Shown here piece by piece: positions 1 through 1,505 of a stretch of DNA of 36,231 bases (position 1 is its first letter; each line of letters starts with the position of its first letter). The stretch is taken from assembly GCA_021782915.1 (NCBI GenBank), contig JAJXUK010000021.1, positions 1-36,231 of the forward strand, given 5' to 3'. The position numbers and the translations under genes were made by a program. The notes below the pieces were generated by a model. It made no database searches and was not told where the DNA came from. It saw nothing but the letters and a program-made list of their open reading frames with translations. This stretch comes from Actinomycetes bacterium (GTDB lineage: Bacteria; Actinomycetota; Acidimicrobiia; Acidimicrobiales; RAAP-2).

Positions 1-1
1 C

Positions 2-106
2 AACGCCGAACGCCTCGCGGCGCTCGAGTCCTTCCTCATCGACTACAACTATGAGCGAACCCATTCATCAATCGGCAACCGACCACCAGCGAGCAGGCTC
101 CCGTGA
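2..106 (+). CDS. IS481-family transposase, C-terminal fragment
   Basis: An open frame enters from the left edge and gives 34 residues before a TGA at 104-106. The tail contains DYNYERTHSSIGNRPPASRL, which matches the C-terminal end of the integrase-core (rve) domain of IS481/IS3-type transposases, where a YN-x-x-R-x-H-x-(S/A)-(L/I)-G-x-x-P-x-x-R pattern follows the last catalytic glutamate. The catalytic D, D and E residues are upstream of the window. The gene runs towards argH and the two stop codons are 22 bases apart. The family call is firm; whether the transposase is intact cannot be known from here. Confidence 0.8.
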   Translation, partial: NAERLAALESFLIDYNYERTHSSIGNRPPASRLP

Positions 107-111
107 ACAAC

Positions 112-127
112 GGTCCTGGGAATTACA
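112..127 (+). repeat. Putative terminal inverted repeat of the IS (right copy)
   Basis: GGTCCTGGGAATTACA follows the transposase stop codon and ends exactly before the CCTAGG target motif. Its reverse complement, TGTAATTCCCAGGACC, would be the outer end of the element. The matching left copy is not in the window, so repeat status is inferred from position and from the TGT end. Confidence 0.6.
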
Positions 128-133
128 CCTAGG
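128..133. other. Putative IS481 target site (NCTAGN) containing the argH stop codon
   Basis: CCTAGG lies at the IS boundary and agrees with the NCTAGN preference described for IS481. On the minus strand its TAG (129-131) is the argH stop codon. Insertion here with target duplication would leave the ArgH reading frame intact. Confidence 0.6.
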
Positions 134-1505
134 CGCTCACGCGTGAGTGGGCTCTGGCTAGCGCCGCGTCGAGGCGCTCACGCTGAGCCGCCACGGCGGC
201 CGGCCCGCTCGCGCCGGGCGACGTGCGCAGGTCCAGGGCGCTGCCCGCCTCGAAGAGCTCGCCGTAGAGCGCCAGGTCCTCACTCTCAGCCACCACCGTG
301 GCCAGACCTACTCCGCGGCGCACCGCATCGCCCACGGCGCGCCCGACGCGCTCATGCGCTCGCCGGAAGGGCATTCCCGCCTCAACCAGTCGCTCGGCGA
401 TGTCAATGGCCACGAGGAACTCGTCATCAGCGGCCCGCGCGGCAACGGGCGCGTTGAAGCTCAGTGAGCGATACGCGCCGGCCAGGGCCCGCAGCACCAG
501 CTCGACCTGACGCACCGAGTCAAAGAGCGGCTCCTTGTCCTCCTGAAGGTCTCGGTTGTACGTCAAGGGCAGACCCTTCAACGTCACCAGCAGTGACGTC
601 AGGTTGCCCACCAGGCGGCCACTCTTGCCACGGGCCAACTCGGCCACGTCGCTGTTCTTCTTCTGGGGCAGCATGGAGGATCCGGTCGTGAAGTCATCAC
701 CCAGGGCCGCGAAGCCGAACTCGGCACTCGTCCACAGGACGAGCTCTTCACCCATGCGTGAGAGGTGCACGCCGAGCAGGGCGATGTCAAAGAGGGTCTC
801 GGCAACGAAGTCTCGATCGCTCACCGCATCCATCGAGTTGGCGAAGGCCTCGCGGAATCCCAGCAGGCGTGCCGTGCGATCAGGGTCAATCGGCAAGGAC
901 GTGCCCGCCACCGCTCCCGCACCCAGCGGCGACACGTTGGCCCTCTCGCGCGTGTCGACGAGGCGCTCGACGTCGCGCACCAGCGCCCAGGCGTGCGCGT
1001 AGAGGTGATGAGCCAGCAGAACGGGCTGGGCGCGCTGCAGGTGCGTGTAGCCCGGCAGGTAGGCCGTCGCGTTCGAGTCGGCCAGCTCGCGCAAGGCCGC
1101 CACCAGGTCGAGCACCCGCGTGGCGATGCCCGTTAGCGCGTCGCGAGTGAAGAGCCGCAGTGCGGTGGCCACCTGGTCGTTGCGGCTGCGCGCGGTATGA
1201 ATCTTGGCCCCGACGGGACCCGCTAGCTCGGTGGCTCGCCGCTCGATCGCCATGTGGATGTCCTCATCCGAGTCGTGTCGCACGAACTCCCCGCGAGCGA
1301 TCTCCTCGCGCACGGCCTCCAGCGTGCTGCGCAGAAGCCGGGCCTCGTCATCACTGAGCAGCCCGGCGCTGCGCAAGCCTTCGACGTGAGCGTGCGAGCC
1401 GCGGATGTCGTGCTCGTAGAGGGTGACGTCAAATGAGTAGCTCTCCGACAGATCCCACAGGGCCTGGGCCATGGGGGTCTCGAATCGACCTGCCCAGAGC
1501 GTCAT
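129..1505 (-). CDS. argH: Argininosuccinate lyase
   Basis: ArgH cleaves argininosuccinate to arginine and fumarate, the last step of arginine synthesis, in the cytoplasm. The 458-residue product starts MTLWAGRFE, as expected for the family. It has HTARSRNDQ near residue 103, GYTHLQRAQP near 152 (catalytic His), and the fumarase/lyase signature GSSMLPQKKNSD near 275. An open frame continues upstream to 1904, but that part is antisense-like sequence inside argG. The ATG at 1503-1505 overlaps the argG stop in an ATGA junction, so translational coupling to argG is likely. It is the last gene of the arginine operon. Its TAG stop lies inside the CTAG target of the neighbouring insertion sequence, with no room for a separate terminator before the IS. 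Confidence 0.97.
   Translation of the reverse strand: MTLWAGRFETPMAQALWDLSESYSFDVTLYEHDIRGSHAHVEGLRSAGLLSDDEARLLRSTLEAVREEIARGEFVRHDSDEDIHMAIERRATELAGPVGAKIHTARSRNDQVATALRLFTRDALTGIATRVLDLVAALRELADSNATAYLPGYTHLQRAQPVLLAHHLYAHAWALVRDVERLVDTRERANVSPLGAGAVAGTSLPIDPDRTARLLGFREAFANSMDAVSDRDFVAETLFDIALLGVHLSRMGEELVLWTSAEFGFAALGDDFTTGSSMLPQKKNSDVAELARGKSGRLVGNLTSLLVTLKGLPLTYNRDLQEDKEPLFDSVRQVELVLRALAGAYRSLSFNAPVAARAADDEFLVAIDIAERLVEAGMPFRRAHERVGRAVGDAVRRGVGLATVVAESEDLALYGELFEAGSALDLRTSPGASGPAAVAAQRERLDAALARAHSRVSA

Follow-up and report, generated by a model that had tools for sequence, protein, structure and literature searches.

An IS481-type element ends directly against the stop codon of argH near the start of the window, by which we mean the whole 36,231-nucleotide stretch analyzed here, and this locus raises the question of whether such a position is peculiar to one insertion or reflects a wider rule, and what could produce it. 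IS481 family elements, for example IS481 of Bordetella pertussis, are about 1 kb long. The window is the entire contig C4 of a 2.15 Mb genome in 84 contigs, and the element is incomplete in it because the contig starts inside the element. Read on the minus strand, bases 108–127 are TGTAATTCCCAGGACCGTTG, and CCTAGG follows directly (Table 1); none of 100 shuffles of the window produced a match to this 20-base element end. A complete copy is located at C12:1–1044. It is 1044 bp long, contains a single 311-aa ORF, begins with TG, finishes with CA, and carries both inverted repeats (22 bases, one mismatch between the two ends). Its transposase matches NF033577 (transpos_IS481; E = 4.4e-98, 328 bits against a cut-off of 224), Pfam LZ_Tnp_IS481 (62.4 against a cut-off of 22.2), rve, and rve_3, and motifs that may be the DDE residues are visible in the protein itself. 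One transposase ORF, putatively of the DDE type, a length of ~1 kb, TG...CA ends, and NCTAGN duplication are common to the family and to this element, and we found no structural difference between them. With these features and the match to the family model, the element is, as judged from its sequence, an ordinary IS481 family member. The first-pass annotation had proposed an IS481-like identity and an element boundary at base 127 abutting an NCTAGN target, and both proposals were borne out by these matches and by the C12 copy. The matching left inverted repeat that it predicted is present in the C12 copy and at C45, and the predicted second CCTAGG lies, identical, on C45, a contig joined to C4 by synteny in relatives. 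Four near-identical copies in this genome suggest that the element may have been active recently.

Table 1. Features at the argH junction of the window and the gene context of element ends in the same genome.
Feature	Position	Strand	Description
IS481-type transposase gene, 3' part	1..106	+	Own stop TGA at 104–106; Pfam rve_3 on 2–103
Right terminal inverted repeat	106..127	-	Minus-strand reading TGTAATTCCCAGGACCGTTGTT; element boundary at base 127
TAA in element end	123..125	-	In argH frame, one codon past TAG (TAG GTG TAA)
Target duplication CCTAGG (NCTAGN)	128..133	.	Second copy on contig C45
argH stop TAG	129..131	-	In frame; formed within the duplicated CTAG
argH, argininosuccinate lyase, intact	129..1505	-	ORF of 458 aa; Pfam Lyase_1 and ASL_C2; same start from gene caller
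Element end on C4			TAG stop of argH
Element end on C25			TAG stop of redoxin-like gene
Element end on C30			TAG stop of F420-type PPOX gene
Element end on C12			TAG stop of gene without Pfam or NCBIfam match
Element end on C37			TAG stop of ABC-2 permease gene
Element end on C44			Thiamine-diphosphate-enzyme gene, own TAG 22 bp before element
Element end on C45			RecB-like TM0106-type nuclease/helicase gene begins 51 bp from element

The minus-strand TAG had been read as the argH stop, and it is indeed the in-frame end of an ORF with both lyase domains. The accompanying claim that the insertion left the protein unchanged also holds: the reading frame and stop are intact, and the target is duplicated on C4 and C45. 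The claim that the native argH 3' end had been removed is wrong, however, and we rejected it; argH ends as it did before the insertion because the six duplicated bases contain the entire stop codon and keep the 3' end whole. Of the same-genus relatives considered (the best 29 of 88–94 matching genomes), 24 have a match to the C45 protein downstream of argH and co-oriented with it; in the three closest it starts ~50 bp away. A CTAG ends argH in 10 of the 29. The next gene in relatives thus follows on the argH strand, and the element interrupts the link to it. A second argH-like gene is present at G000:C61:1769–3136 (L340) on a 3.5-kb contig; its protein is 66% identical, and it is either a paralogue or contamination from a related genome.

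A search for further copies, as the first-pass annotation had advised together with a tally of TAG stops, found seven CTAG-flanked element ends genome-wide (three right and four left), whereas a reversed control pattern gave none. Five of these ends lie against an ORF that runs toward the element and has the TAG as its in-frame stop (Table 1). Synteny in same-genus relatives, in each case the best 29 among the 90, 88, and 94 further genomes with a match, pairs contig C4 with C45, C30 with C12, and C25 with C37, and the three paired insertions carry exact 6-bp duplications (CCTAGG, CCTAGT, and CCTAGT); the partner flank of the C44 insertion was not found in the genome's contigs. From the matching duplications and synteny, the seven ends resolve into four insertions, of which two sit at double stops, one at a tandem stop, and one between genes. 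Stops thus account for three of the four insertions, which is not significant against the CTAG sites of the genome (p = 0.06), and double stops for two of the four (p = 0.012). When the nearest copies, in genomes G133 and G127, are added, the counts become 5/6 for stops (p = 0.006) and 3/6 for double stops (p = 0.002), figures that treat the G127 site, by interpretation, as a double stop before mutation. The convergent arrangement at the two double stops is widespread among relatives (the best 29 of 88–94 matching genomes in each case): 24 of 29 have the PPOX gene facing the C12 gene convergently, and 27 of 29 have the redoxin gene in the same arrangement with the C37 permease gene, the latter two lying no more than 60 bp apart in 25. 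A double-stop CTAG free of the element is found in 5 of the 29 for the PPOX/C12-gene pair (L343–L371) and in 8 of the 29 for the redoxin/ABC-2 permease pair (L373–L401). The C12 gene itself (G000:C12:1046–1525, L023) is conserved; a search with its longer reading frame gave no match in Pfam or NCBIfam at 0.001.

CTAG is scarce in this host. The window contains 21 sites, about half the mean of 41 seen when its sequence is shuffled. In a 435-kb sample of the genome, TAG makes up 164 of 388 complete stops, and of the 303 CTAG sites, 81 are located at TAG stops, including 14 double stops, 126 lie between genes, and 96 lie inside them.

The survey of the wider family started from 187 loci with transposase relatives, collected in three retrieval rounds (80 + 17 + 90). 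We dropped 4 loci without a transposase match, 34 without ends, 24 with one-sided CTAG, 10 with differing duplicates, and 4 repeated sites. This left 111 insertions, of which 108 had sufficient flank after three short-flank loci were removed; the 6-bp duplication is perfect in 92 of the 108. Named genome records supplied 43 insertions, including L068 (labelled Chloroflexi) and L089 (Acidobacteria), and the other 65 come mostly from genomes of the window's genus, family, order, class, or phylum. The four insertions of the window's own genome stand outside this set because each is split between contigs; the G133 copy (L027) is inside it, and the G127 copy was left out because one of its duplicates is mutated. 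Genes were called with a home-made codon-usage dynamic-programming script, and the remaining CTAG sites of these joined flanks served as background (n = 372).

TAG stops received 65 of the 108 insertions (60%), compared with 73 of the 372 background CTAG sites (20%; Fisher p = 4e-15). The insertions divide into 53 at single stops, 12 at double stops, 35 intergenic, and 8 interior, and the background sites into 71, 2, 192, and 107, respectively. The excess is seen when interior sites are excluded (odds ratio, OR, 4.9; p = 1e-10) and in a test matched per locus, in which 57 of 99 insertions lie at stops against 34.8 expected (p = 5e-5, the smallest attainable value). These counts and the matched test support the conjecture of the first-pass annotation that a TAG stop with a C before it offers CTAG-targeting elements a safe harbour. 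An earlier, smaller count (27 of 45 insertions on stops against 23 of 101 background sites) is superseded by the present set and is not independent of it because most loci are common to both. By gene arrangement, the ratio of insertions to background falls from 1.43 at convergent stops (43/30) through 0.53 at tandem stops (21/40), 0.45 in convergent intergenic regions (15/33), and 0.18 in tandem intergenic regions (15/83) to 0.075 in gene interiors (8/107) and 0.07 in divergent intergenic regions (4/56). Insertions are scarce in divergent regions, where promoters lie, and concentrate at the ends of convergent genes. Some intergenic targets (L057, L217, and others) are long CTAG-centred palindromes, e.g., GACAGGCCCTAGGGCCTGTC, which may be terminators or repeats serving as targets. 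Palindromy is higher at intergenic insertion sites (4.0 matches of 10) than in the background (2.6; p = 3e-4). Hairpin or terminator targeting was rejected as the main rule, with palindromes of at least 8/10 at only 2 of the 108 sites.

Our preferred reading, to which we give a probability of about 0.77, is that a CTAG-cutting IS481 element entered the argH stop and that the family-wide excess at stops comes mainly from purifying selection on insertions. At the argH site, the DDE transposase of a recent IS481-family copy would have cut at NCTAGN and duplicated six bases, placing the element at the argH-stop CTAG, between argH and the co-directional RecB-like nuclease/helicase gene; what is established for the window is where the element ends, that its target is duplicated, that the site is empty in relatives, and that the reading frames are intact. 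Across the family, many CTAG sites would be hit with a mild preference for G or C at −3, insertions that break genes or promoters would be removed by selection, and the survivors would gather at TAG stops, foremost between convergent genes and at a shared CTAG, where an insertion would be favoured most because the stops of both genes are restored. The gradient from convergent stops to divergent regions follows the order of expected host harm, which fits selection. TnRErm46, a young IS481-family transposon of Rhodococcus equi, entered the end of parB and also aadA9, sul1, and orf5 (PMC6794481); gene interiors can thus be hit, which speaks for selection and against active targeting, i.e., a preference of the transposase complex for TAG stops or gene ends acting via transcription or translation termination or via DNA shape. 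Some of the data nevertheless point toward targeting. Stops are preferred over intergenic CTAG sites within convergent (p = 0.003) and within tandem regions (p = 0.006), so that selection against broken genes and promoters is insufficient by itself, and in a joint logistic model of 480 sites that includes motif, GC, and context, a stop OR of 2.1 (p = 0.016) remains, which leaves room for targeting. Neither the interior term (p = 0.10) nor the divergent term (p = 0.43) reaches significance in that model, a further point against the selection reading. Insertions in genomes with at least four fetched copies are probably younger and, if selection were the cause, should show fewer stops, yet 22 of 39 are on stops, compared with 43 of 69 in the remaining genomes; the copies taken to be younger thus show no clear drop in concentration, which favours some targeting or else fast selection. 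On the other hand, the joint model gives more weight to the flank motif (p = 6e-9) and to convergent context (p = 0.001) than to the stop term, and the element lies in either orientation to the stop gene without bias (27 vs. 26). We regard targeting as unlikely to be the main cause.

The excess might instead be nothing more than a by-product of a flank preference, whereby the transposase would like the G or C that precedes stops at −3; stops in GC-rich genomes carry G or C there because it is a third codon position. Indeed, A or T at −3 occurs in only 22 of 216 insertion halves, compared with 243 of 744 background halves (p = 4e-12), and in 12% of background stop-side halves. All seven element ends in the window's genome read G[AC]CTAG[GT] into the element, and GMCTAGKC is matched by only 10 of 302 background sites there, 6 of them at stops. 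As the only cause, however, this preference is largely refuted by the stop OR of 3.75 (p = 6e-7) that remains given motif and local GC alone, and the motif does not account for the avoidance of divergent regions, which makes this explanation quite improbable. An artefact of gene calling or locus choice seems very remote. The gene caller was home-made rather than a standard gene finder, and 72 of the 187 loci were dropped for want of a transposase match or clean ends, in addition to the four duplicates and three short flanks. The same caller was nonetheless applied to insertions and background, and of three gene-score cut-offs (10, 20, and 30), the stricter ones gave similar counts (61/108 vs. 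70/372, and 60/108 vs. 61/372). A Pfam match at 1e-5 was found in 24 of 30 genes drawn at random from the 77 stop genes (one of the 30 being a transposase), and the result is upheld by the matched test and by a mean of 62% on stops over 73 genomes, in our own grouping, when one insertion is taken per genome.

The element ends themselves also bear on the relation to stop codons. The TAA at 123–125 could serve as a backup stop for argH. Of the 66 distinct left and 76 distinct right ends in the set of 111 insertions, 39 and 33, respectively, have a stop within three codons inside the element in the frame of the host TAG, compared with 1/66 left and 1/76 right in one of the other two frames and 1/66 left and 0/76 right in the other, although a T at repeat position 3 by itself favours stops in the host-TAG frame. 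At the G127 copy (L182, G127:C117, 1098–1117), GAG stands at the target in place of the host TAG, and the gene call continues one codon further, to the TAA in the repeat; the backup stop thus appears to be in use there after an apparent TAG-to-GAG change. Because element ends are related to each other, such in-frame second stops are a lead and not a test. IS481-type elements may even be fitted to stop codons, with TAG stops as a dedicated niche, a doubtful but conceivable reading suggested by three features: the palindromic target restores both convergent stops, the −3 preference matches the codons before TAG in GC-rich genomes, and the ends often carry second stops.

Known systems resemble this one in part. 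IS481-type transposases whose stops lie within the duplicated target have been reported in Leifsonia xyli; in the part of that report available to us, ISLxc2 and ISLxx4 are IS481 family elements that duplicate NCTAGN and take a stop codon from the target, but the stop supplied is that of the element's own transposase and not that of a host gene (PMC2516522). TnRErm46/ISRe46 of R. equi likewise combines an IS481-family transposase with a CTAG target, and TnRErm46 is a single published case in which the target of an IS481-family element supplies a stop (PMC6794481, available in part). It is 6.9 kb long with resistance cargo, whereas the element studied here is 1044 bp with a transposase only, and its right TAG doubles as the end of the transposase gene, whereas the element at argH has its own TGA. 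The available part of that account gives no count against a background and no double-stop sites (PMC6794481). In our searches of the open-access literature, we found no genome-scale measurement of stops against a background and no convergent double-stop case. What is new here is the measured concentration on TAG stops, together with the finding that conserved pairs of convergent genes with a common CTAG serve as insertion sites.

Taken together, these results turn a case remark from the literature into a general rule that can be tested. A common transposon would multiply cheaply in compact genomes by using a four-base target that is rare within genes and common at gene ends, and stop codon usage would yield a simple prediction of its insertion sites. 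The rule also offers a sequence-level reason why insertions collect at convergent genes with a shared CTAG, and what most deserves to be pursued is the measured preference for stops, above all for those that two convergent genes have in common.
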